This document shows, piece by piece, positions 31,295 through 42,788 of a DNA stretch of 64,000 nt. Source of the DNA: Frigidibacter sp. SD6-1 (GTDB lineage Bacteria; Pseudomonadota; Alphaproteobacteria; Rhodobacterales; Rhodobacteraceae). Within the stretch, counting starts at the first letter, position 1; every line of letters starts with the position of its first letter. The translations under genes and the position numbers were made by a program. The notes under the pieces are model-generated. The model worked only from the letters and a program-made list of their open reading frames with translations. It had not been told where the DNA came from and searched no databases. The stretch covers positions 124,001 through 188,000 of the forward strand of contig NZ_JARJNR010000003.1 in the NCBI RefSeq assembly GCF_030143255.1. The letters are read 5' to 3'.

Positions 31295-32158
31295 ATGGCG
31301 GATCGGGCCGGAATAGACATGCTTTTTGTCCGGGAACGGCCCCGGCTTATCCGGCTCGCCTATCGCTATCTCGGCAGCGTCAGCGATGCCGAGGATGTGG
31401 TGCAGGACGCGTTCCTGAAGCTCGGCAAGGCTGGTCCGGTCGAACGACCCGAGGGCTGGCTGGCGCGGACGGTCACCAACGGGGCACTTGACCGGTTGCG
31501 GCGGCAGAAGGCGCTGCGCGAAAGCTATGTCGGCCAGTGGCTGCCGGAGCCGGTGGTGGAGCCCGAGCTTTGCGCCGCGTCGGACCGGGAACTCGACATT
31601 TCCTTTGCAGTGATGCGCACGCTTGAGGCTTTGAGCCCCTTGGAGCGCGCGGCCTTCTTCCTGCACGACCTCTTCGATCAGGATTTCGAGACGATTGCCA
31701 AGACGTTGAACCGCACACCCGCCGCCTGCCGCAAGCTTGCGTCCCGCGCCCGCGCGGCGGTGCGCGAAGGTCGGGCGAAGCGGTCCGCGACGGGCGCGGA
31801 CATCGCGGCCTTTCTGCAGGCGATATCGGAGGCGGCGATCAGCGGCGATGTCGCGCCGCTCGCGGCCCGGCTCGCGGCCGATGCCCAACTGGTGTCGGAT
31901 GGCGGCGGCAAGGCGATCGCGGCGCCGAATGTGGTCAGGGGTGCCACTTCGGTCGCGCGTTTCCTCGCCGGGATTGCGCGCAAGGCGGCGGGCGGGCTGG
32001 AGGTGCGGTCGCTGACGGTGAACGGTGCCCCGGCTGTACTGATCCTGGCGGAGGGTGACAGCGGCAGTCTTCTGTCCTTCGATCTCGACGCGGCGGGCGC
32101 GGTCCGGACGGTCTATATCCAGCGCAATCCTGACAAGCTTGGTGCGCTTATGCCCTGA
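31295..32158 (+). CDS. ECF sigma factor, group ECF41 (SigJ-like)
   Basis: A 287-aa ECF factor with an unusual C-terminal extension. Sigma region 2 is about 10-75 and region 4 about 105-160. The group signatures are present: WLPEP (82-86) in the linker, and in the SnoaL-like extension (about 168-287) DGGGK (202-206) and NPDKL (278-282). The extension of ECF41 factors is known to control their activity in place of an anti-sigma factor. The gene ends with a convergent 11-base overlap with the LysR gene. Confidence 0.95.
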   Translation: MADRAGIDMLFVRERPRLIRLAYRYLGSVSDAEDVVQDAFLKLGKAGPVERPEGWLARTVTNGALDRLRRQKALRESYVGQWLPEPVVEPELCAASDRELDISFAVMRTLEALSPLERAAFFLHDLFDQDFETIAKTLNRTPAACRKLASRARAAVREGRAKRSATGADIAAFLQAISEAAISGDVAPLAARLAADAQLVSDGGGKAIAAPNVVRGATSVARFLAGIARKAAGGLEVRSLTVNGAPAVLILAEGDSGSLLSFDLDAAGAVRTVYIQRNPDKLGALMP

Positions 32159-33041
32159 CGCCGCGCGCCGGGCGCCTGGGTTCGGGCGGCCGGGCGAAAG
32201 CGAAATGGTCGCGCAGGCAGGCCAGAAGGCGGCGGTGCACCGGGCGGTGGCGGAAGCGCTGGTTGACGCCCGCGAAGACCGTCTGGGTGATCGGCGGCGC
32301 GTCAAGAACCAGACGACAGGTGAGGTCGGCGGTCAGATCCGCAACCGAGCCCTGCATCACATAGGCCGTGCCCCCCATGCTGCGCAAAAGCGCGACCATC
32401 GCCGCATTCTGGCCGATCGACAGGCTTGCATCGACAAGCGTCGGGTGCAGCGCCGCATGGGCATGCGGAATCGCGTCGGAAAAATGCGGCAGGATGTAGG
32501 TGTCGCGCCGCACTTCCTCCAGCCGCTCGACCTCGGTCGAGACCATCACATAGGTCACCTCGCCCAGCGTTTCGAAATAAAGGTCGGGGTGGAAGCGGGG
32601 CGAGAAGAGGATGGCGAGGTCTTCCTTGCCGGTCGTGAGGTCGGCGCACATCTGCGCCGAATAATCCGCCTCGAAGAAGAAGGCGGTTTCGGGCAGGCTG
32701 GCGCGGAAGGCGGCGATCAGGTCACTGAAATGGGCGTTCACCAGATCGTGCTGGATGCCGATGCGGATCGTGGCCGGGCGCGAGCCCGCATCGCCCACCG
32801 CATGGCGCGCCTCGGTCCAGCCATGGCGCAGGCCGCGCGCGTGCGGTTCGAACCTCAGGCCTTGCAAGGTGGGCTGGGTGCCCGAGCGCGACCGGTCGAA
32901 CAGTTTCTGCCCGAGTGCCTTTTCAAGGGCGCTGATCCGGCCCGAGACCGTCGATTGCGTGACCCCCAGCCGCTCGGCCGTTCGGTTGAAGCTGCGGGTT
33001 TCGCACAGGTCGAGGAAGGTTTCGATCAGTTCGATCTGCAT
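32148..33041 (-). CDS. LysR-family transcriptional regulator
   Basis: A 297-aa regulator with HTH at about 15-38 (RSFNRTAERLGVTQSTVSGRIS) and a substrate-binding-like effector domain (about 90-280). It is divergent from the demethylase operon at 33292 and a T-N11-A palindrome lies in the gap, so it probably controls that operon. Its effector would be a substrate or product of the pathway. Confidence 0.92.
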   Translation of the reverse strand: MQIELIETFLDLCETRSFNRTAERLGVTQSTVSGRISALEKALGQKLFDRSRSGTQPTLQGLRFEPHARGLRHGWTEARHAVGDAGSRPATIRIGIQHDLVNAHFSDLIAAFRASLPETAFFFEADYSAQMCADLTTGKEDLAILFSPRFHPDLYFETLGEVTYVMVSTEVERLEEVRRDTYILPHFSDAIPHAHAALHPTLVDASLSIGQNAAMVALLRSMGGTAYVMQGSVADLTADLTCRLVLDAPPITQTVFAGVNQRFRHRPVHRRLLACLRDHFAFARPPEPRRPARGVRA

Positions 33042-33085
33042 GGCCGCCCCCGGAGGTTTCGGCGCGCGCGATGTGGCAGATGTCC

Positions 33086-33167
33086 CCGCCCCGGCCTTGA
33101 GCCGGGGCCTCCCGCCTTGCAGGCCCGGCCCTTCGTGGGCGGAGGCCCCGGCTCAAGGCCGGGGCGG
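33086..33167. repeat. Perfect 27-base inverted repeat (REP-like)
   Basis: The arms 33086-33112 and 33141-33167 are exact reverse complements, separated by 28 bases. Each arm also contains its own smaller palindrome (CCCGGCCTTGAGCCGGG). The core recalls short repeats common in alphaproteobacterial genomes. It sits between the LysR start and its presumed operator. Confidence 0.85.
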
Positions 33168-33201
33168 CGACGAAAGCTGTCTGGTGTCATGAGTGCCTCT
33201 A

Positions 33202-33216
33202 ATCGGATATTCCGAT
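33202..33216 (+). promoter_or_regulatory. Candidate LysR operator, T-N11-A palindrome
   Basis: ATCGGATATTCCGAT is a perfect palindrome with the LysR form T-N11-A (33203-33215). Its centre (33209) is about 65 bases before the predicted transcription start near 33274, the classical position of the LysR recognition site. Confidence 0.65.
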
Positions 33217-33291: not shown

Positions 33292-35736
33292 ATGAGCGCC
33301 ATTCCAAGCACCGCACGGGTCGTGATCATCGGCGGGGGCGTCGTCGGCGTCTCGTCGCTTTATCATCTCTGCAAGGCGGGCTGGACCGATGTCGTGCTGC
33401 TGGAGAAGAACGAGCTGACGGCGGGCTCGACCTGGCACGCGGCGGGCAATGTGCCGACCTTCTCGACCTCCTGGTCGCTCATGAACATGCAGCGCTATTC
33501 GACCGAGCTTTACCGGGGCCTCGGGCAGGCGGTCGACTATCCGATGAACTACCATGTCACCGGCTCGATCCGTCTGGCGCATTCCAGGGAAAGGATGCAG
33601 GAGTTTCAGCGCGCAAAGGGCATGGGCCGCTATCAGGGGATGGATATCGACATCCTCGGCCCGGGCGAGATCAGGGACAAATACCCGTTCATCGAGACCC
33701 ATGACCTGAAGGGCGCTCTGTACGATCCGAACGATGGTGACATCGACCCCGCGCAGCTGACGCAGGCCTTGGCCAAAGGTGCGCGCGACATGGGCGCGAC
33801 GATCCTGCGGTTTACCCCGGCGACCGGGGTTTCCCGCGAGAACGGCGAATGGATCGTCCATACCGAAAAGGGCGACATCCGCTGCGAGATCGTGGTGAAT
33901 GCTGCGGGCTATTATGCCCAAAAGGTCGGCGAATGGTTCAGGCCCTATGGCGGGCGCACCGTGCCGATGATGGTGATGAGCCACCAGTACATCCTGTTCG
34001 AGGAAGTGGACGAGGTGCGCGACTGGTCGCAGAAGGTCGGCCACAAGCTGCCGCTTCTGCGCGACGTCGACACGTCCTACTACCTGCGGCAGGAAAAGAA
34101 CGGCTTCAATCTTGGGCCATACGAGCGCAACTGCCGCGCCCACTGGGTCAAGCCCGAGGATCCGTTCCCGGAGGATTTCAGTTTCCAGCTTTTCCCCGAC
34201 GATCTGGAGCGGCTGGAATATTACATCGAGGATGCGCTGGCGCGCGTGCCGCTTCTGGGCAAGGCCGGGCTTTCCAAGGTCATCAACGGCCCGATCCCCT
34301 ATGCCCCTGACGGCAACCCGCTGATCGGCCCGATGCCCGGGGTGCCGAATGCGTTCGAGGCCTGCGTCTTCACCTTCGGCATCGCGCAGGGTGGCGGCGC
34401 GGGCAAGGTGCTGGCGGAATGGATCACCGAGGGCGCGACCGAATGGGACATGTGGTCCTGCGATCCGCGCCGGTTCACCGACTATACCGACACCGACTAT
34501 TGCGTGCAGAAGGGGATGGAGGTCTACGGCCACGAATATGGCATGCACTTCCCCTGGGCGCGCTGGCCTGCCGCGCCCGACCGGCGGCTGTCTTCGGTTC
34601 ACGACAAGGTCAAGGCCCTCGGTGGCCAGTTCGGACCCTATAACGGGTACGAGCGCGCCAACTGGTATGCCAAACCCGGTGACGACACGTCCTGGGACGC
34701 GACCCAGACCTGGGGACGCTCCGGCCCGTGGGAGCCGCGCATCCGCGAGGAATGCGAGGCGGTGCGCGATCATGTCGGCGTCCTCAGCCTGCCGGGTTTT
34801 TCACGCTTCGAACTTTCGGGCGAAGGTGCGGGCGAGTGGCTGCGCGGGCTGATCTCGGGCGGGCTGCCCAAGGAGGGCCGCCTGTCGCTGGCCTATTTCC
34901 CCGACCATCGCGGCCGCATCCTGACCGAGATGTCGGTGATCAACCGGGGTGGCGACCGGTTCACCCTGATCACGGCCTCGGTCGCGCAATGGCACGATTT
35001 CGAGTGGCTGAAGAAGCATCTTGCGCCGGGCCTGACGCTGACCGACCGGTCGGGCGAGATGGATACGCTGATCGTCACCGGCCCGAAGGCGCGCGAGCTT
35101 TTTGCCGCGATCGGCGAGGCAGACCTGACGCTGCCGTGGCTGTCCACACAGCAGGCCCGGATCGCGGGCCGCGACTGCGAGATGTTCCGCGTGAGCTTCC
35201 CGGGCGAACTGGGCTGGGAGGTGCATGCGTCGGCGGACAACATGCCCGCGATCTATGACGCCATCATCGGCTGGGGGGCGAAACCCTTCGGCATGTGGGC
35301 GATGAATTCCCTGCGCCTCGAAAAGGGTTATCGCGCCTGGAAGGGCGACCTGTCCACGGACTACAGCCTTCTGGAAGGCGGGCTCGACCGGTTCGTGAAG
35401 CTCGACAAGCCGCAGGATTTCATCGGCAAGGCAGCCCTTCAGGCGGAATTCCAGCGCGGCGTGAAGAAACGCTTCGTCACCCTGGTCGTGGATGCCGGCG
35501 ACTGCGATGCGCCCTACATGTCGACGCTCTGGCATGACGGCAAGGTCGTGGGCGAAACCACTTCCGGCGCCTGGGGCTACCGGGTGAACAAATCGATCGC
35601 GCTCGGCATGCTGCGCGCCGATCTGGCGAGCCCTGGCACCGAGATCGAGGTGGAGATCTACGGCGAGCGTTGCCGCGCGGTGGTGCAGGAAGACCAGCCG
35701 CTGTGGGATCCGGCGAACGAAAGGATCCGCGCGTGA
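33292..35736 (+). CDS. Dimethylglycine/sarcosine dehydrogenase-like FAD-GcvT protein 1
   Basis: An 814-aa fusion: FAD-dependent oxidoreductase (GGGVVG at 14-19; STWHAAG with His49 as the likely covalent-FAD histidine), a linker domain (about 375-430), and a GcvT-type tetrahydrofolate-binding aminomethyltransferase domain (about 440-810). Relatives oxidise N-methyl groups of dimethylglycine, sarcosine or similar amines and transfer the C1 unit to tetrahydrofolate. The strong ribosome site GGAGGAAG supports this start. It is first gene of the operon; the substrate is not defined. Confidence 0.92.
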   Translation: MSAIPSTARVVIIGGGVVGVSSLYHLCKAGWTDVVLLEKNELTAGSTWHAAGNVPTFSTSWSLMNMQRYSTELYRGLGQAVDYPMNYHVTGSIRLAHSRERMQEFQRAKGMGRYQGMDIDILGPGEIRDKYPFIETHDLKGALYDPNDGDIDPAQLTQALAKGARDMGATILRFTPATGVSRENGEWIVHTEKGDIRCEIVVNAAGYYAQKVGEWFRPYGGRTVPMMVMSHQYILFEEVDEVRDWSQKVGHKLPLLRDVDTSYYLRQEKNGFNLGPYERNCRAHWVKPEDPFPEDFSFQLFPDDLERLEYYIEDALARVPLLGKAGLSKVINGPIPYAPDGNPLIGPMPGVPNAFEACVFTFGIAQGGGAGKVLAEWITEGATEWDMWSCDPRRFTDYTDTDYCVQKGMEVYGHEYGMHFPWARWPAAPDRRLSSVHDKVKALGGQFGPYNGYERANWYAKPGDDTSWDATQTWGRSGPWEPRIREECEAVRDHVGVLSLPGFSRFELSGEGAGEWLRGLISGGLPKEGRLSLAYFPDHRGRILTEMSVINRGGDRFTLITASVAQWHDFEWLKKHLAPGLTLTDRSGEMDTLIVTGPKARELFAAIGEADLTLPWLSTQQARIAGRDCEMFRVSFPGELGWEVHASADNMPAIYDAIIGWGAKPFGMWAMNSLRLEKGYRAWKGDLSTDYSLLEGGLDRFVKLDKPQDFIGKAALQAEFQRGVKKRFVTLVVDAGDCDAPYMSTLWHDGKVVGETTSGAWGYRVNKSIALGMLRADLASPGTEIEVEIYGERCRAVVQEDQPLWDPANERIRA

Positions 35737-36317
35737 GGAGCGTGGGCGCCAGATCCTGGCCCGCGCGCCCGGTACTTGCGCCGGTCGTTGCGGATGCATT
35801 TGCGCCGCTCAATGCCGAGATCGGTGCGATGCCGCTTGCCTTCGGCACGGCGCACAATCTTCTGGTGCGCGCCGATGTCGGCGCCGGGACCGCGCTTCTC
35901 GTCGCCTGTGAAGGCGAGGCGGCGGGCTATGCGGCGATCCGGCTGGCGCGGACACTCGGGGCCGGGGTCACGGCCCTTTGCACCGGTTCGTCGGCGGCCG
36001 TTGCCCGCGCCGCAGGGGCCGAGGTGGTGGCCAAGCTTTCCGCCGACCGGTTCGACGCAATCATCGATCTTGGCACCGGCGCGGCGCGGGCGGGGCTGCT
36101 TGCGCGTCTGCGTCCCGGCGGCATCTATGCCACGACCGGCATCATCGCCGAAGCGCCCGCGCGCGGCCAGACCCGCACGGTCTATCTGAACGACCTGACA
36201 CTTTTCGGCCGCCCGCACCTGCCGCGCGAGGTGTTTTCCGGTCTCGTCAGTACCATCATCCTGTCGCCGATTCACCTTGTCGAGACGACCCCAGAGCGGA
36301 GCGAAAATCATGTCTAA
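35733..36317 (+). CDS. Truncated MDR-type dehydrogenase, NAD(P)-binding domain only
   Basis: I choose the GTG at 35733, overlapping the TGA of the first dehydrogenase; the product is 194 aa. It resembles the second half of quinone-oxidoreductase/alcohol-dehydrogenase MDR proteins: MPLAFGTAHNLLVRADVGAGTALLVACEGE, a Rossmann-like AAGYAAIRLARTLGAGVTALC, and LARLRPGGIYATTGIIAEAP. The catalytic domain of about 130 residues at the N-terminus is absent. It overlaps the next dehydrogenase by 8 bases. Either a degraded gene or a small accessory protein. Confidence 0.65.
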   Translation: MRSVGARSWPARPVLAPVVADAFAPLNAEIGAMPLAFGTAHNLLVRADVGAGTALLVACEGEAAGYAAIRLARTLGAGVTALCTGSSAAVARAAGAEVVAKLSADRFDAIIDLGTGAARAGLLARLRPGGIYATTGIIAEAPARGQTRTVYLNDLTLFGRPHLPREVFSGLVSTIILSPIHLVETTPERSENHV

Positions 36318-38754
36318 CCTGCCGCAAAAGGCGCGTGCGGTCATCATCGGCGGGGGTGTTGTCGGCTGTTCGGTCGCCTATCACCTGACCAAGCTCGGCT
36401 GGAAGGATGTGGTGCTGCTGGAACGAAAGCAGCTGACCTCGGGTACCACATGGCACGCGGCGGGGCTGATCGGCCAGCTGCGCGCCTCGGCCAACATGAC
36501 GCGGCTGGCCAAGTATTCCGCAGACCTCTATCGCGGCCTCGAACAGGAGACCGGCCTTGCAACCGGGTTCAAGCAGGTCGGTTCAATCACCGCCGCGCTG
36601 ACCGACGAGCGGAAGGAAGAGATTTTCCGCAATGCCTCGATGGCGCGGGCCTTCGGCGTGCCGGTCGAGGAAATCTCGCCTTCGCAGGTGAAGGAACGCT
36701 ATCCGCATCTGAACATCGAAGGCGTGAAGGCGGGCGTCTGGCTGCCGACCGACGGGCAGGGCGACCCGGCCAATATCGCGCTGGCGCTGGCCAAGGGCGC
36801 AAAGGCGCGCGGCGCGGTGGTGGCCGAGGGCGTGAAGGTCACGGGCGTCAAGGTCGAGGGCCGCCGGGCGAAGAGCGTCTCGTGGGAAATGGGCGGCGAG
36901 GCGGGCGTGATCGAGGCCGATCATGTCGTCAATTGCGCGGGCATGTGGGGCCATGCGGTGGGCCGGATGGCGGGTGTCAACGTGCCACTTCATGCCTGCG
37001 AGCATTTCTACATCGTGACCGAGCCGATCCCGGGCCTGACGCAGATGCCGGTGCTGCGGGTGCCGGACGAATGCGCCTATTACAAGGAAGACGCGGGCAA
37101 GTATCTCTTGGGTGCGTTCGAGCCGAATGCCAAGCCCTGGGGGATGAACGGCATCCCGGAAGATTTCTGCTTCGACCAGTTGCCCGAGGATTTCGATCAT
37201 TTCGAGCCGATCCTCGAACGCGCGATCAACCGTCTGCCGATGCTTGCCTCGGCGGGGATCCACACTTTCTTCAACGGGCCGGAAAGCTTCACGCCGGATG
37301 ACGCCTACAACCTCGGCCTCTCGCTTGAGGTCGACAATTTCTGGGTCGCCGCCGGGTTCAACTCGATTGGTATCCAGTCGGCCGGTGGCGCAGGCATGGC
37401 GCTGGCGGAATGGATGGAGACGGGCGAGAAGCCATTTGATCTCGGTGACGTTGACGTCGGCCGCAACCAGCCGTTCCAGGGCAACCGGCATTACCTTTAC
37501 GAACGGTCGAAGGAAACGCTCGGCCTTCTTTACGCCGACCATTATCCCTACCGGCAGAAAGCCACCGCGCGCGGCGTGCGCCGGACGCCGTTCCATGCCC
37601 ATCTGGAGGCCGAAGGCGCGGTCTTCGGCGAGATCGGCGGCTGGGAACGGGCGAACTGGTATGCGAAGCCGGGGCAAGAGCGGGGGTACCGCTACAGCTG
37701 GGGCCGTCAGAACTGGTTCGACAATACCGCCGAAGAACATCGCGCGGTGCGCACGAACGTCGGCATGTATGACATGTCCTCCTTCGGCAAGATCCGGGTC
37801 GAGGGGCGCGATGCGGAGGCCTATCTGAACCATATCTGCGGCGCCGACATGTCGGTTCCGGTGGGGCGGATCGTCTATACGCAGTTCCTGAACAAGAACG
37901 CCGGCATCGAGGCCGACGTCACCGTCACGCGCCTGTCTGAGACCGCCTATCTGGTGGTGACGCCTGCGGTGACGCGGCCCAAGGATCAGGCCTGGATGCG
38001 CCGCCATATCGGTGATTTCAACGTGGTGATCACCGACGTGACGGCGGCCGAAGGTGTGCTTGCCGTGATGGGGCCGAACGCCCGCAAGCTGATGCAGAAG
38101 GTCAGCCCCGGTGATTTCTCGAACGAGGTGAACCCGTTCGGCACCGCGCAGGAGATCGAGCTGGGTATGGGCCTCGCCCGCGTTCACCGCGTGTCCTATG
38201 TCGGAGAGTTGGGGTGGGAGATCTATGTCTCCTCCGACATGTGCGGCCATGCGTTCGAGGTCTTGTGGGACGCGGGCCGCGACATGGGGCTGAAGCTGTG
38301 CGGCATGCATATGATGGACTGCGCCCGGATCGAGAAGGCCTTCCGTCATTTCGGCCATGACATCACTTCGGAAGATCATGTGCTGGAGGCGGGGCTTGGC
38401 TTTGCGGTCAGGACTGCGAAGGCGGATTTCATTGGGCGCGATGCGGTTCTGAGGAAGAAGGAAGCGGGGCTTGACCGGCGGATGATGCAGTTCCGGCTGA
38501 GCGATCCGGGCGAGATGGTCTATCACAACGAACCGATCCTGAGGGATGGCAAGATCGTGAGCTACCTCTCGTCGGGCGCCTATGGCCATCACCTCGGCGC
38601 GGCGATCGGCATGGGCTATGTGCCGTCGAAGGGCGAAGGGGCGGAGGCTCTGCTGGCCTCTTCCTATGAAATCGAGATTGCCGGGCGGCGGGTGATGGCG
38701 GAGGCCTCGCTGCAGCCGATGTACGACCCGAAGGGCGAACGGGCGAAGATGTAG
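36310..38754 (+). CDS. Dimethylglycine/sarcosine dehydrogenase-like FAD-GcvT protein 2
   Basis: A second 814-aa FAD-GcvT protein, ATG 36310 with GGAGCG upstream. FAD motif GGGVVG (14-19), WHAAG with His49, central linker and C-terminal GcvT domain (about 440-810, including VGELGWEIYVSSDM). It is a paralogue of the first, not a near copy, which suggests different substrates or successive demethylation steps. A dispersed hairpin repeat follows its stop. Confidence 0.92.
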   Translation: MSNLPQKARAVIIGGGVVGCSVAYHLTKLGWKDVVLLERKQLTSGTTWHAAGLIGQLRASANMTRLAKYSADLYRGLEQETGLATGFKQVGSITAALTDERKEEIFRNASMARAFGVPVEEISPSQVKERYPHLNIEGVKAGVWLPTDGQGDPANIALALAKGAKARGAVVAEGVKVTGVKVEGRRAKSVSWEMGGEAGVIEADHVVNCAGMWGHAVGRMAGVNVPLHACEHFYIVTEPIPGLTQMPVLRVPDECAYYKEDAGKYLLGAFEPNAKPWGMNGIPEDFCFDQLPEDFDHFEPILERAINRLPMLASAGIHTFFNGPESFTPDDAYNLGLSLEVDNFWVAAGFNSIGIQSAGGAGMALAEWMETGEKPFDLGDVDVGRNQPFQGNRHYLYERSKETLGLLYADHYPYRQKATARGVRRTPFHAHLEAEGAVFGEIGGWERANWYAKPGQERGYRYSWGRQNWFDNTAEEHRAVRTNVGMYDMSSFGKIRVEGRDAEAYLNHICGADMSVPVGRIVYTQFLNKNAGIEADVTVTRLSETAYLVVTPAVTRPKDQAWMRRHIGDFNVVITDVTAAEGVLAVMGPNARKLMQKVSPGDFSNEVNPFGTAQEIELGMGLARVHRVSYVGELGWEIYVSSDMCGHAFEVLWDAGRDMGLKLCGMHMMDCARIEKAFRHFGHDITSEDHVLEAGLGFAVRTAKADFIGRDAVLRKKEAGLDRRMMQFRLSDPGEMVYHNEPILRDGKIVSYLSSGAYGHHLGAAIGMGYVPSKGEGAEALLASSYEIEIAGRRVMAEASLQPMYDPKGERAKM

Positions 38755-38763
38755 GCGGCGGAG

Positions 38764-38820
38764 GCCCGGGGGGCTGTCTGCCCCCCGGACCCCCCGAAGG
38801 TATTTGGACCAAGATGAAGG
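38764..38820 (+). repeat. Dispersed intergenic hairpin repeat, copy 4
   Basis: GGGGGGC/GCCCCCC-type stem (CCGGGGGGCTGTCTGCCCCC) followed by CCCCCCGAAGGTATTTGGAC and CAAGATGAAGG. It lies between the second dehydrogenase and the methyltransferase gene. If it terminates transcription, the last three genes need their own promoter or read-through. Confidence 0.72.
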
Positions 38821-38845
38821 CATGAGGTCTTCAGGGAAGGTTGAG

Positions 38846-40399
38846 ATGAGCGAAGAGGCGCTGAATTGCGAACCGAGGCGGGCGGCACGGGCCGGGGGGC
38901 GCGAAGCGCGCCGGGCGGCGCGGGCGGCACCCTTGGCCGAGGGGCTGCGCCCGGTCAGGGCGGGCATGTCGGGTGGCCAGTACCGGCCGCTGACCGACGA
39001 GGGGATGAAGAAGATCCATGAAAGCGCGCTCGATGCGCTGGAAGAGATCGGCCTCAGCCAGGCGCCACCCTCGGGTGTCAAGCTTCTGACCGAAGCGGGT
39101 GCGATCCTGGGTGACGACGGGCGTATCCGTTTTCCGCGCGCCCTGGTCGAGGACATGCTGGCGGTCGCGGCGCGCAATATCACGCTCCATGCCCGCGATC
39201 CGAAGTACGACCTGCATCTGTCGGGCACCAAGGTTCATTACGGCACGGCGGGCGCGGCGGTGCACATCGTCGATCCGGTGACGCTCGACTATCGCGAATC
39301 CACCGCGCAGGACCTCTATGATGCGGCGCGCCTGGTCGAGAACCTCGACAATATCCATTTCTACCAGCGCACCATGGTCTGCCGCGACGTGGTCGACAAC
39401 AAGGAGATGGACCTCAACACGCTTTATGGCTGCCTGTCGGGCACCCGCAAGCATGTGGGCACCTCCTTCAGCGATCCGTCCCATGTCGCCGACTGTTTCG
39501 ACATGATCTACACGGTGGCGGGCGGCGAGGAGAAATGGCTGGAACGGCCTTTCGTCTCGAACTCCAACTGTTTCGTCGTGCCGCCGATGAAATTCGCCGA
39601 GGAAAGCTGCATCACCATGGAGGATTGCATCCGCCGCGGCATGCCGATGCTGCTGCTGTCGGCCGGTCAGGCCGGGGCGACGGCGCCCGCGCCGATCGCA
39701 CTGACGATCGTGCAGGCGGTGGCGGAATGCCTGGCGGGCGTTGTCTATGTGAATGCGATCAAGAAGGGCGCGCCCGCAATCTTCGGCACCTGGCCCTTCG
39801 TGTCGGACCTCAGGACCGGCGCCATGTCGGGGGGCAGCGCCGAGCAGGCACTGCTGACGGCGGGCTGCGCGCAGATGCACCGGTTCTATGACCTGCCGGG
39901 CGGGGCGGCCTCGGGTATCTCGGATTCGAAGCTCCCGGACATGCAGGCGGGCTGGGAGCAGGGGATCACGAACTCGCTCGCCGGACTTGCGGGTCTGAAC
40001 ATGTGCTACGAGGCGGTGGGCATGCATGCCTCCCTGCTCGGCTTCTGCCTGGAAAGCCTGATCCTTGGCGACGACCTTCTGGGTCAGGCCATGCGGCTGG
40101 TGCGCGGCATCGACGTGACCGAGGATTCGACCTCGATCGAGGCGATGAAGCAGGTCTGCCTTGGCGGCCCGGGCCATTACCTCGGTTCCGACCAGACGCT
40201 GGCGCTGATGCAGACCGAATATGTCTATCCGGCGGTCGGCAACCGGATGAGCCCGAAGGAATGGAACGAGGCGGGCAAGCCGATCCTCTTGGATGCGGCC
40301 ATCGCGCGGAAGAACGACATTCTGGCGAAGGCGGGTTCGGTCATCGACCCCGAGATCGATGCGGCGATCCGCAGGACCTACAACATCTACTTCAAGTGA
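38846..40399 (+). CDS. MttB-superfamily methyltransferase, non-pyrrolysine
   Basis: A 517-aa protein of the trimethylamine:corrinoid methyltransferase family (COG5598-type). ATG 38846 follows AGGGAAGGTTGAG. There is no in-frame amber codon, so it is the non-pyrrolysine branch, whose characterised members demethylate glycine betaine or other quaternary amines with a corrinoid partner. An Arg/Ala-rich N-terminal 40 residues precede the barrel domain (SGTKVHYGTAGAAVHIVDP, MYLLDP-like segments, GLNMCYEAVGMHASLLGFCLESL). No corrinoid protein gene is nearby. Confidence 0.85.
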   Translation: MSEEALNCEPRRAARAGGREARRAARAAPLAEGLRPVRAGMSGGQYRPLTDEGMKKIHESALDALEEIGLSQAPPSGVKLLTEAGAILGDDGRIRFPRALVEDMLAVAARNITLHARDPKYDLHLSGTKVHYGTAGAAVHIVDPVTLDYRESTAQDLYDAARLVENLDNIHFYQRTMVCRDVVDNKEMDLNTLYGCLSGTRKHVGTSFSDPSHVADCFDMIYTVAGGEEKWLERPFVSNSNCFVVPPMKFAEESCITMEDCIRRGMPMLLLSAGQAGATAPAPIALTIVQAVAECLAGVVYVNAIKKGAPAIFGTWPFVSDLRTGAMSGGSAEQALLTAGCAQMHRFYDLPGGAASGISDSKLPDMQAGWEQGITNSLAGLAGLNMCYEAVGMHASLLGFCLESLILGDDLLGQAMRLVRGIDVTEDSTSIEAMKQVCLGGPGHYLGSDQTLALMQTEYVYPAVGNRMSPKEWNEAGKPILLDAAIARKNDILAKAGSVIDPEIDAAIRRTYNIYFK

Positions 40400-40406
40400 G
40401 CGGCGG

Positions 40407-41837
40407 ATGAACCACGCAAACAGCCTTAAATTCTACGTGGGGGGGCAATGGGTCGACCCGCTGTCGCCCGACCGGATGGGTGTCGAGAACCCCGCAACCG
40501 AAGAGATCGTCTGTGAGGTGGCGCTGGGCAACGAGGCGGACGCGGATCGCGCGGTCATGGCGGCGCGGGCGGCCTTTGCCGGCTGGACCGTCCGGCCGGT
40601 TGCGGAGCGGATCGCCGTCCTGACGCGGGTGCTTGAGGTCTATAACGACCGCTACGAGGATTTCGCGCAGGCCATGTCGGTCGAGATGGGCGCGCCGATC
40701 GAATGGGCGCGTGGTGCGCAGGCCTGGGCGGGGCAGGTCCATATCGAGGCGACGATCAAGGCCGCCGAAAACTTCCATTGGGAGGAGATGCGCGGAACGA
40801 CCCGGATCATCCGCGAGGGGGTCGGCGTCTGCACGCTGATCACGCCCTGGAACTGGCCGATGAACCAGATCGCCTGCAAGGTGGCGCCCGCTTTGGTCGC
40901 GGGCTGCACGATGGTGCTGAAACCGTCGGAAATCGCGCCGCTGTCGGGCCTGCTTTTCGCCGAGGTCTGTCATGCGGCGGGCGTGCCGCCCGGGGTCTTC
41001 AACCTGATAAACGGGACCGGGGCAGGCGTGGGCGGGCGGCTCACGTCTCATCCGGAGGTCGATATGGTGTCCTTCACCGGCTCGACGCGGGCGGGTACGG
41101 CGGTGGCGGCGGCGGCCGCGCCCACGGTGAAGCGCGTGGCGCAGGAACTGGGCGGCAAGTCGCCCAACATCATCCTGCCGTCTGCCGACCTCGCGGCGGC
41201 GGTGAAGGCGGGCGTCGAGGGCTGCTTTGGCAATACCGGGCAAAGCTGCGACGCCCCCACGCGCATGTTCGTTCATCGCGATCAGCATGATCAGGCGCTG
41301 GTTCATGCGAAAGAGGCGGCCGATGCCGTCGTGATCGGCGATACGCAGGACAGCTCGACGACCATGGGGCCGCTCGTCTCGAAAATGCAGTTCGACAAGG
41401 TGCAGGCGCTGATCCAGGCGGGCATCGACGAGGGCGCGACACTCGTCGCCGGTGGCATCGGCCGCCCGGCAGGGGTGAACCGTGGCTGGTATGTGCGCCC
41501 GACGGTGTTCGGCAATGTGACGAACGACATGACCATCGCCCGCGAGGAGATTTTCGGGCCGGTCCTGTCGATCATCCCCTATGACACGGTGGACGAGGCG
41601 GTGGCGGCGGCGAACGACACGCCTTACGGGCTGGCGGCCTATGTCGCCGGTCCCGTCGAAGAGGCGCGGGCCGTCGCCCGCCGCCTGCGCGCGGGCATGG
41701 TGAACCTGAACTATCCGGCCTGGGACACGTTCGCGCCCTTCGGCGGCTACAAGCAATCGGGCAACGGGCGCGAATATGCCGACTGGGGCATCCATGACTT
41801 CTGCGAGGTCAAGGGCGTCGTCGGCTGGGGCGAATGA
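40407..41837 (+). CDS. NAD(P)-dependent aldehyde dehydrogenase
   Basis: A 476-aa aldehyde dehydrogenase. The catalytic residues are Asn149 (PWN), Glu247 (QELGG), Cys281 (GQSC) and the cofactor motif FTGSTRAG (223-230). It lies 7 bases after the methyltransferase gene and is likely to oxidise an aldehyde produced upstream, such as a methylamine side-chain aldehyde or formaldehyde equivalent. Substrate unknown. Confidence 0.93.
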   Translation: MNHANSLKFYVGGQWVDPLSPDRMGVENPATEEIVCEVALGNEADADRAVMAARAAFAGWTVRPVAERIAVLTRVLEVYNDRYEDFAQAMSVEMGAPIEWARGAQAWAGQVHIEATIKAAENFHWEEMRGTTRIIREGVGVCTLITPWNWPMNQIACKVAPALVAGCTMVLKPSEIAPLSGLLFAEVCHAAGVPPGVFNLINGTGAGVGGRLTSHPEVDMVSFTGSTRAGTAVAAAAAPTVKRVAQELGGKSPNIILPSADLAAAVKAGVEGCFGNTGQSCDAPTRMFVHRDQHDQALVHAKEAADAVVIGDTQDSSTTMGPLVSKMQFDKVQALIQAGIDEGATLVAGGIGRPAGVNRGWYVRPTVFGNVTNDMTIAREEIFGPVLSIIPYDTVDEAVAAANDTPYGLAAYVAGPVEEARAVARRLRAGMVNLNYPAWDTFAPFGGYKQSGNGREYADWGIHDFCEVKGVVGWGE

Positions 41838-41888
41838 ACTACCTTTCGGGCAGCGGGAAGCCGCCCTTCCAATCTCTCGGGGAGTGAC

Positions 41889-42788
41889 ATGCATTACGGC
41901 TATATCGGACTTGGCAACCTTGGCGCGGCCTGCGCGGGATGTCTTCTCAAGGCGGGCTTCAAGGTCACGGTCTTCGACCTGAACAAGGCGCTTGCCGAAC
42001 CGCTGATCAAGGCGGGCGCGACCTGGGCCGACAGCGCCGAGGCGGTGGCTTCCTCGGTCGATCACGTGATCACCTGCCTGCCCTCGCCCGTCGTCTCGGA
42101 AAAGGTGCTGCGGTCGATTCTGCCGCACATGAAGACGGGCGCGAGCTGGATCGAGATGTCGACGCTTGGCCGCGACGATGTGCTGGCGCTGTCGAAGGTT
42201 GCCGGAGAGGCGGGCGTGCGCATGCTGGAACTGCCGGTCACCGGCGGTGTCCACCTTGCCTACCGGGGCGAGATCACCATGCTGCCGGGCGGCGACAAGG
42301 ACCTTGTCGACCTGCACTGGAAAGCCTTCGAGGCGATGGGCAACCGCATCTTCCACATGGGGCCGCTCGGATCCTCCTCGATCATCAAGGTCATCACCAA
42401 CATGCTGGCCTTCATCCATCTGAAGGCCTGCGGCGAGGCCTTGATGCTGGCCAAGCGCGGCGGGCTCGATCTGGCACAGTCGTGGCATGCGATCCAGGCC
42501 TCGTCGGGCAATTCCTTCGTGCATGAAACCGAAGGCGCGCTGATCCTGAACGGTTCTTACGACATCGCCTTCAACATCGATCTGGCGTTGAAGGATCTGG
42601 GTTTCGCGCTGGGCTTCGGCAAGGAATTCGGTGTGCCGCTCGACCTCGCCTCGGCGACGAACCAGACCTATATCGCCGCCAAGGCCGCCTATGGCGGCGA
42701 CGCGCAATCGCCGATGATCGCGAAGCTGCTCGAGGACCTTCTGCACACCGACCTGCGCGCGCCTGGCTTCCCCGCCCGTCTGGAATGA
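41889..42788 (+). CDS. 3-Hydroxyisobutyrate dehydrogenase-like beta-hydroxyacid dehydrogenase
   Basis: A 299-aa NAD-binding enzyme, GGGGAG upstream. N-terminal Rossmann motif GYIGLGNLGAACAGCLL, central LPVTGGVHLA, and catalytic Lys167 (IIKVITNML). It belongs to the HIBADH/tartronate semialdehyde reductase group; the altered GNL-A-C pattern and PVTGG instead of PVSGG suggest a different substrate from the named enzymes. It closes the operon. Confidence 0.88.
   Translation: MHYGYIGLGNLGAACAGCLLKAGFKVTVFDLNKALAEPLIKAGATWADSAEAVASSVDHVITCLPSPVVSEKVLRSILPHMKTGASWIEMSTLGRDDVLALSKVAGEAGVRMLELPVTGGVHLAYRGEITMLPGGDKDLVDLHWKAFEAMGNRIFHMGPLGSSSIIKVITNMLAFIHLKACGEALMLAKRGGLDLAQSWHAIQASSGNSFVHETEGALILNGSYDIAFNIDLALKDLGFALGFGKEFGVPLDLASATNQTYIAAKAAYGGDAQSPMIAKLLEDLLHTDLRAPGFPARLE

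Follow-up and report, generated by a model that had tools for sequence, protein, structure and literature searches.

The window analysed here, a stretch of 64,000 nucleotides from the genome of Frigidibacter sp. SD6-1 (3.9 Mb in 38 contigs), contains a gene cluster in which an MttB-type methyltransferase gene is linked to genes of two flavin adenine dinucleotide (FAD)-dependent proteins with folate-binding GcvT domains, and which is a candidate operon for the demethylation of glycine betaine. Downstream of a divergently transcribed gene for a LysR-type regulator (32148–33041, minus strand; HTH_1 and LysR_substrate domains in Pfam), two proteins of 814 aa each, termed FAD1 and FAD2, are encoded at 33292–35736 and 36310–38754, respectively (plus strand, as are all genes that follow). 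Both carry DAO, FAO_M, GCV_T, and GCV_T_C domains (Pfam). The best PDB match of FAD1 was mitochondrial dimethylglycine dehydrogenase (DMGDH; 5l46, 556 bits), aligned over nearly the full length (residues 7–812), while FAD2 matched DMGDH with 471 bits and DMGO with 422 bits. The mttB homologue (38846–40399; 368 bits to PF06253) encodes a protein without pyrrolysine, a candidate glycine betaine:corrinoid methyltransferase of 517 aa if translated from the ATG and of 531 aa if translated from a TTG at 38804. It is followed by genes of an aldehyde dehydrogenase (ALDH; 40407–41837, Aldedh domain) and of a HIBADH-like dehydrogenase of the 6PGDH fold (41889–42788; NAD_binding_2 and NAD_binding_11). 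The best NCBIfam model for ALDH, BADH, scored 411 bits, under its cut-off of 669, and all 13 NCBIfam models listed for the HIBADH-like protein fell short of their cut-offs. Gaps of 91 bases 5' of mttB, 7 bases before the ALDH gene, and 51 bases before the HIBADH-like gene are consistent with a predicted single transcript; promoter and terminator scans gave nothing above shuffled sequence. The linked set of LysR, two 814-aa FAD/GcvT proteins, MttB, ALDH, and HIBADH-like protein had been described in a first-pass annotation made from the sequence alone, and it is borne out by gene calls, Pfam matches, and its recurrence among 80 loci of relatives.

That annotation had also remarked on the absence of a corrinoid protein and of a corrinoid:folate methyltransferase, which holds for the 64-kb window, where no match to PF02310, PF02607, or PF00809 was found, but not for the genome, which encodes proteins of the MtgC and MtgD types. 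Genome-wide, three matches to PF02310 were obtained, one of which coincides with the single match to PF02607 (contig 33, 144202–144414). The corresponding protein of 232 aa comprises both B12 domains, stands alone, and is of the MtgC type; the next called gene codes for a DUF1638 protein. The distant corrinoid partner which the annotation had considered is thus available. The other two PF02310 proteins, of 655 and 710 aa, appeared mutase-like by eye. On contig 11, a gene for an MtgD-type protein (Pterin_bind) adjoins a 307-aa MetF2-like gene, the product of which had no Pfam match at 0.001, and a 98-aa gene of family PF13769; the single RACo-type activase gene and one of the two S-methyl_trans genes of the genome are located on the same contig. 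The genes of MtgC, DUF1638, MtgD, the MetF2-like protein, and the RACo-type activase all lie outside the window, so the apparent lack of a corrinoid protein disappears at genome scale.

These genes correspond to a set described in 2025 for Ruegeria pomeroyi DSS-3 as a split methionine synthase and glycine betaine demethylase (PMC12478193). According to the available text of that paper, mtgC and mtgD are required for growth on glycine betaine even if methionine is provided, two PF06253 proteins, SPO2108 and SPO2134, increase on glycine betaine, and other bacteria often have genes of the later demethylation steps close to mtgBCD. In R. pomeroyi, SPO3400 and SPO3396 are described as dimethylglycine dehydrogenase and sarcosine dehydrogenase (SarDH), respectively, both with folate domains (PMC4744692, in the part available). 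Locus names of the R. pomeroyi genes matched here, in a genome taken to be that of DSS-3, were deduced from their position rather than taken from a record. The counterparts of MtgC, DUF1638, and the RACo-type activase share 87.5%, 71%, and 75% sequence identity, respectively, with the Frigidibacter proteins; those of MetF2, MtgD, and MtgE range from 76 to 78% (76% for MtgD and 78% for MetF2, which are encoded by adjacent genes in R. pomeroyi) and are spaced exactly as SPO1862, SPO1863, and SPO1884. The counterparts of MtgC and DUF1638 are two called genes apart, in agreement with SPO2160 and SPO2162. R. pomeroyi possesses seven PF06253 genes, of which only two are situated in the interval from the activase gene (SPO2041 place) to mtgC: the counterpart of the window mttB (67% identity), 25 called genes before mtgC where 26 are expected for SPO2134, and the counterpart of the mttB copy at 786 kb of contig 11 (78%), 49 called genes before mtgC where 52 are expected for SPO2108. 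In a comparison with selected stretches of the R. pomeroyi genome, the counterparts of FAD1 (74%) and FAD2 (78%) were found four genes apart, which fits SPO3400 and SPO3396; an MDR gene and an S-methyl_trans homologue are situated between them, together with a gene that by eye resembles a regulator. By position and identity, FAD1 and FAD2 are thus predicted to be the counterparts of DMGDH and SarDH.

We propose, with a probability of about 0.68, that the operon removes all three N-methyl groups of the common osmolyte glycine betaine, with MtgC acting in trans. MttB would transfer the first methyl group of glycine betaine to the cobalamin carried by MtgC, to give dimethylglycine; the gene of MtgC is found in another part of the genome, and the protein would be shared with the split methionine synthase. 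From MtgC, the methyl group would be passed to tetrahydrofolate by MtgD, followed by oxidation by MetF2. FAD1 may then act as dimethylglycine dehydrogenase to form sarcosine, and FAD2 as sarcosine dehydrogenase to form glycine, each placing the oxidized methyl group onto folate via its GcvT domain, and the LysR-type protein would control the operon. The first-pass annotation correctly read the cluster as an operon for the demethylation of a methylated amine, its parts matching the MtgBCD glycine betaine route; the idea of an undescribed pathway found no support, as the available text of PMC12478193 already sets out that route and as the genome-wide search for MtgC- and MtgA-like genes, proposed by the annotation itself as a check, was positive.

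In the 80 loci that encode close MttB relatives, several of which end at contig ends and one of which contains an mttB gene that had not been called, genes of the same families were found near mttB in high numbers: HIBADH in 76, FAD2 in 72, FAD1 in 64, LysR in 60, and ALDH in 54. Further families were a pyridoxal phosphate (PLP) enzyme of Cys/Met metabolism (37), an MDR dehydrogenase (18), PEP_mutase (11, between FAD2 and MttB), a GMC oxidoreductase (11), and hydantoinase A (7). Because these families recur near mttB across the relatives' loci, the linkage is not due to chance. Three loci (L100 from Loktanella, L103, and L106) contain LysR, MttB, and HIBADH without a match to FAD1 or FAD2 within the stretch examined. 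The order LysR, FAD1, FAD2, PEP_mutase, MttB in Shinella (L163), and LysR, FAD1, FAD2 (called as two pieces), MttB on pSymB of Sinorhizobium meliloti (L162), indicate that the stable core consists of LysR, FAD1, FAD2, and MttB. ALDH and the HIBADH-like protein look like lineage-specific extras of Rhodobacter-like lineages, with no part assigned to them in the glycine betaine route. A second set of 20 more distant loci was mixed, with FAD1, FAD2, and MttB together in several and MttB alone in others.

Co-occurrence was determined in 295 genomes of the family, which are related to one another. At cut-offs of E <= 1e-200 for the window-type MttB (166 genomes) and E <= 1e-240 for FAD1 (181 genomes), both orthologues were present in 157 genomes, MttB only in 9, FAD1 only in 24, and neither in 105. 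Given the relatedness of the genomes, a Fisher test of these counts exaggerates their significance. The MttB count leaves out 10 of 176 genomes, the best matches of which (3.4e-52 to 6.5e-151) were taken as paralogues. Among the single best matches listed (149 for MttB and 150 for FAD1; both places in 125 genomes), the two genes were 20 kb or less apart in 41 of 125 genomes. Since FAD1 tracks MttB even where the genes are unlinked, the association extends past the operon. MtgC, scored at E <= 1e-40, was detected in 273 of the 295 genomes, namely 160 of the 166 with the window-type MttB and 113 of the 129 without it; as expected of a part of methionine synthase it is near-universal, and its presence indicates only that a partner is available.

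About 90 bases before FAD1, a dyad ATCGG-N5-CCGAT (33202–33216) was observed, which we take to be the T-N11-A form of a LysR operator and which is likely the site through which the LysR-type protein would act. It was first read from the window and from the sister strain Frigidibacter sp. RF13 and then tested in the 160 bases before FAD1 in 60 loci, related to one another and including the window. An exact copy was found in 32 of the 60 loci and a copy with at most one mismatch in 53, compared to shuffle means of 0.09 and 1.01, respectively. In the same gap of S. meliloti and Shinella, the dyad ATCGA-N5-TCGAT deviates at two positions and is still symmetric. Three more exact matches were located in 424 kb of the Frigidibacter genome examined (with some overlap). 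Between the dyad and lysR, a near-perfect palindrome of 90 bases (33082–33171) with arms of 45 nt, 84% complementary, has a single-strand fold of –51 kcal/mol (z –7.7). It is part of an additional segment of about 150 bases next to the start codon of lysR; strain RF13 lacks this segment, and no other full copy of the palindrome was present in the 424 kb examined.

Several observations weigh against the proposed role of the operon. In a tree of 20 rows, the window MttB groups with the SPO2134 type, the proteins of S. meliloti and Shinella, a protein encoded on the R. pomeroyi megaplasmid, and a further copy from contig 22 of its own genome, while the SPO2108 type and four other copies of the Frigidibacter genome, which has seven PF06253 genes in total, fall together with MtgB. 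The group of the window type, the SPO2134 place, S. meliloti, and Shinella (starred in the tree) lies across the midpoint from MtgB; as the root was placed at the midpoint, the tree shows the separation of the clades rather than their age, and the row L7, a fragment on a long branch, is of unsure placement. The window MttB, outside the MtgB clade, is only 27.6% identical to MtgB, compared with 40–42% for the SPO2108 type. SPO2108 likewise rises on glycine betaine, hence could be the real enzyme, and the available text of PMC12478193 reports mutants of mtgC and mtgD and none of SPO2108 or SPO2134. Three further FAD/GcvT paralogues are encoded in the genome, one of them beside what appears by eye to be a betaine ABC transporter. 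With respect to regulation, the best dyad matches in R. pomeroyi, preceding the genes that correspond to FAD1 and MttB, have three and four mismatches, respectively. In the Frigidibacter genome, the mtgC and mtgD loci examined gave no match to the dyad, an argument against their joint control by this LysR. The main doubt concerns the enzyme of the first step, as MttB proteins of two types are induced by glycine betaine: linkage favours the window type, and similarity to MtgB the other.

If the SPO2108 type, represented here by the contig-11 copy, were the glycine betaine enzyme, the window MttB might demethylate another carboxylated quaternary amine, the product of which would be finished by the same two FAD/GcvT enzymes. 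We consider this unlikely, albeit worth weighing. The clade of the window MttB is not bound to one product, as, on the megaplasmid of R. pomeroyi, a sister cluster combines an MttB of the same clade with two FAD proteins, a class III aminotransferase, and a thiamine pyrophosphate (TPP) enzyme, and the HIBADH, ALDH, PLP enzyme, and PEP_mutase neighbours would be superfluous for glycine betaine. However, FAD1 and FAD2 correspond to DMGDH and SarDH, FAD1 accompanies the window-type MttB across genomes even where the two genes are unlinked, and in both genomes the SPO2108-type gene has a guaA-like gene in its vicinity, while inspection by eye revealed no catabolic gene around it. A Bhmt-like route, in which the first methyl group is transferred to homocysteine by an S-methyl_trans protein and MttB represents a side activity, appears very improbable. 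An S-methyl_trans homologue, homocysteine S-methyltransferase-like, does occur between the FAD genes in R. pomeroyi, in 2 of the 80 close loci (L040, 5729–6616, and L041), and in 6 of the 20 distant loci; one instance is at L160, 10298–11194. In the Frigidibacter genome, a copy that shares 67% identity with that of L040 is retained about 75 kb off on the same contig. Nevertheless, 78 of the 80 close loci contain mttB without an S-methyl_trans gene in the cluster, and the requirement for mtgC and mtgD in the presence of methionine, mentioned above, is not expected for such a route.

In six of the 166 genomes with the window-type MttB, MtgC was not detected, which counts against the proposed route, and there is no corrinoid gene in the operon. 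Since two of these six genomes are near-complete (rated 96–97%), it is conceivable that this MttB clade uses no corrinoid protein and another acceptor instead, such as GcvT-bound folate of its operon partners; we regard this as extremely unlikely, the other four genomes being rated only 76–86% complete. The more specific proposal of the first-pass annotation, direct methyl transfer to folate on the GcvT domains, found no support, is not needed with MtgC at hand, and is hardly credible. GcvT domains of the DMGDH type accept the methylene group from an oxidized amine, not a methyl group. Furthermore, MttB-superfamily members of known substrate pass the methyl group to a cobalamin protein, as far as described in the available text of PMC12155760 and PMC12478193. 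Glycine betaine demethylation via MtgC in trans remains our preferred explanation.

Between the FAD genes, the first-pass annotation omitted what remains of a zinc-type (MDR) dehydrogenase gene, truncated at its 5' end (35829–36317, plus strand). It matches residues 146–318 of the 344-aa MDR protein of locus L029, the first half of which has no credible counterpart here. In the 18 relatives' loci with an MDR gene, it is full length in 16, located between the FAD genes, cut by a contig end in one, and truncated, as in the window, in strain RF13. The 162-aa open reading frame at this site was therefore rejected as a protein in its own right; searches with the 215-aa frame gave no Pfam, NCBIfam, or PADLOC match. 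The HutF family is present in 22 of the 80 close loci, and histidine-utilization genes are located upstream of lysR in L029, L031, L037, and others, many of them from Tabrizicola- and Rhodobacter-like genomes. Histidine betaine was considered as substrate and dismissed, as the hut genes lie beyond lysR, did not appear in the remaining loci, and are taken as mere neighbours. A homarine operon was considered and set aside; judged by titles and abstract openings, no listed paper concerned homarine. Two mttB paralogues of the Frigidibacter genome (L014, 9244–12760; L017, 9202–12898) are found beside flavoproteins of the old yellow enzyme type (Oxidored_FMN) and possibly belong to other betaine routes. 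The seventh PF06253 copy (L020, 9399–10469; 356 aa called), on a long branch of the tree, looks shortened or decayed. One relative (G030; L128, match 1221–2753) has an mttB with an in-frame TAG near the C-terminus, away from the pyrrolysine place, which is probably an error or a sign of decay. The megaplasmid cluster mentioned above (L164, 6950–17246) consists of genes of a LysR regulator, an MttB 44% identical to that of the window, the class III aminotransferase, two FAD/GcvT-like proteins, and the TPP enzyme, and looks like a system for full N-demethylation of another betaine and subsequent transamination.

The 2025 work, in the text available (PMC12478193), left SPO2108 and SPO2134 as two candidates for the first demethylation of glycine betaine in oxic marine bacteria, and of the published work found on the linkage of MttB with FAD/GcvT proteins, it alone, as far as its text was available, comes close. 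We regard the Frigidibacter operon as an instance of this recently described pathway; the new point is a second MttB clade, distinct from MtgB, tied to DMGDH and SarDH genes. The SPO2134 type is associated with these two genes and with one conserved LysR site, while the MtgB-like SPO2108 type, as far as seen, is not. The explanation we favour includes a second line of glycine betaine methyltransferases, separate from MtgB, in aerobic Alphaproteobacteria; if it is correct, the SPO2134-type gene would be a sharper marker than PF06253 as a whole.

Compared to characterized systems, FAD1 is matched over nearly its full length by mitochondrial DMGDH (PDB 5l46, 4pab), differing in its bacterial origin and its place in an operon with mttB. 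The window MttB and the pyrrolysine-containing MttB of Methanosarcina (PDB 7xcl, 7xcm) belong to a common fold family. At the positions of Gly110 and Tyr364 in the Methanosarcina protein (for their roles, see PMC9842639, available in part), the window MttB likewise has Gly and Tyr, and Ile occupies the pyrrolysine place; as the gene also lacks an in-frame amber codon or other stop, a pyrrolysine MttB was ruled out. MtgB of Desulfitobacterium hafniense (PDB 2qne, 9yce) has different residues at all three places. The latter shares PF06253 with the window MttB (query residues 45–509 aligned, 184 bits), but it belongs to the other clade, and its partners are named MtgA and MtgC. Closest is the MtgBCD route of R. 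pomeroyi, with which Frigidibacter has in common the MttB of the SPO2134 place, MtgC, MtgD, MetF2, DUF1638, the RACo-type activase, and the counterparts of DMGDH and SarDH. In R. pomeroyi, however, the mttB gene is far from those of both dehydrogenases, whereas in Frigidibacter the three are united in one LysR-linked operon with the ALDH and HIBADH-like genes.

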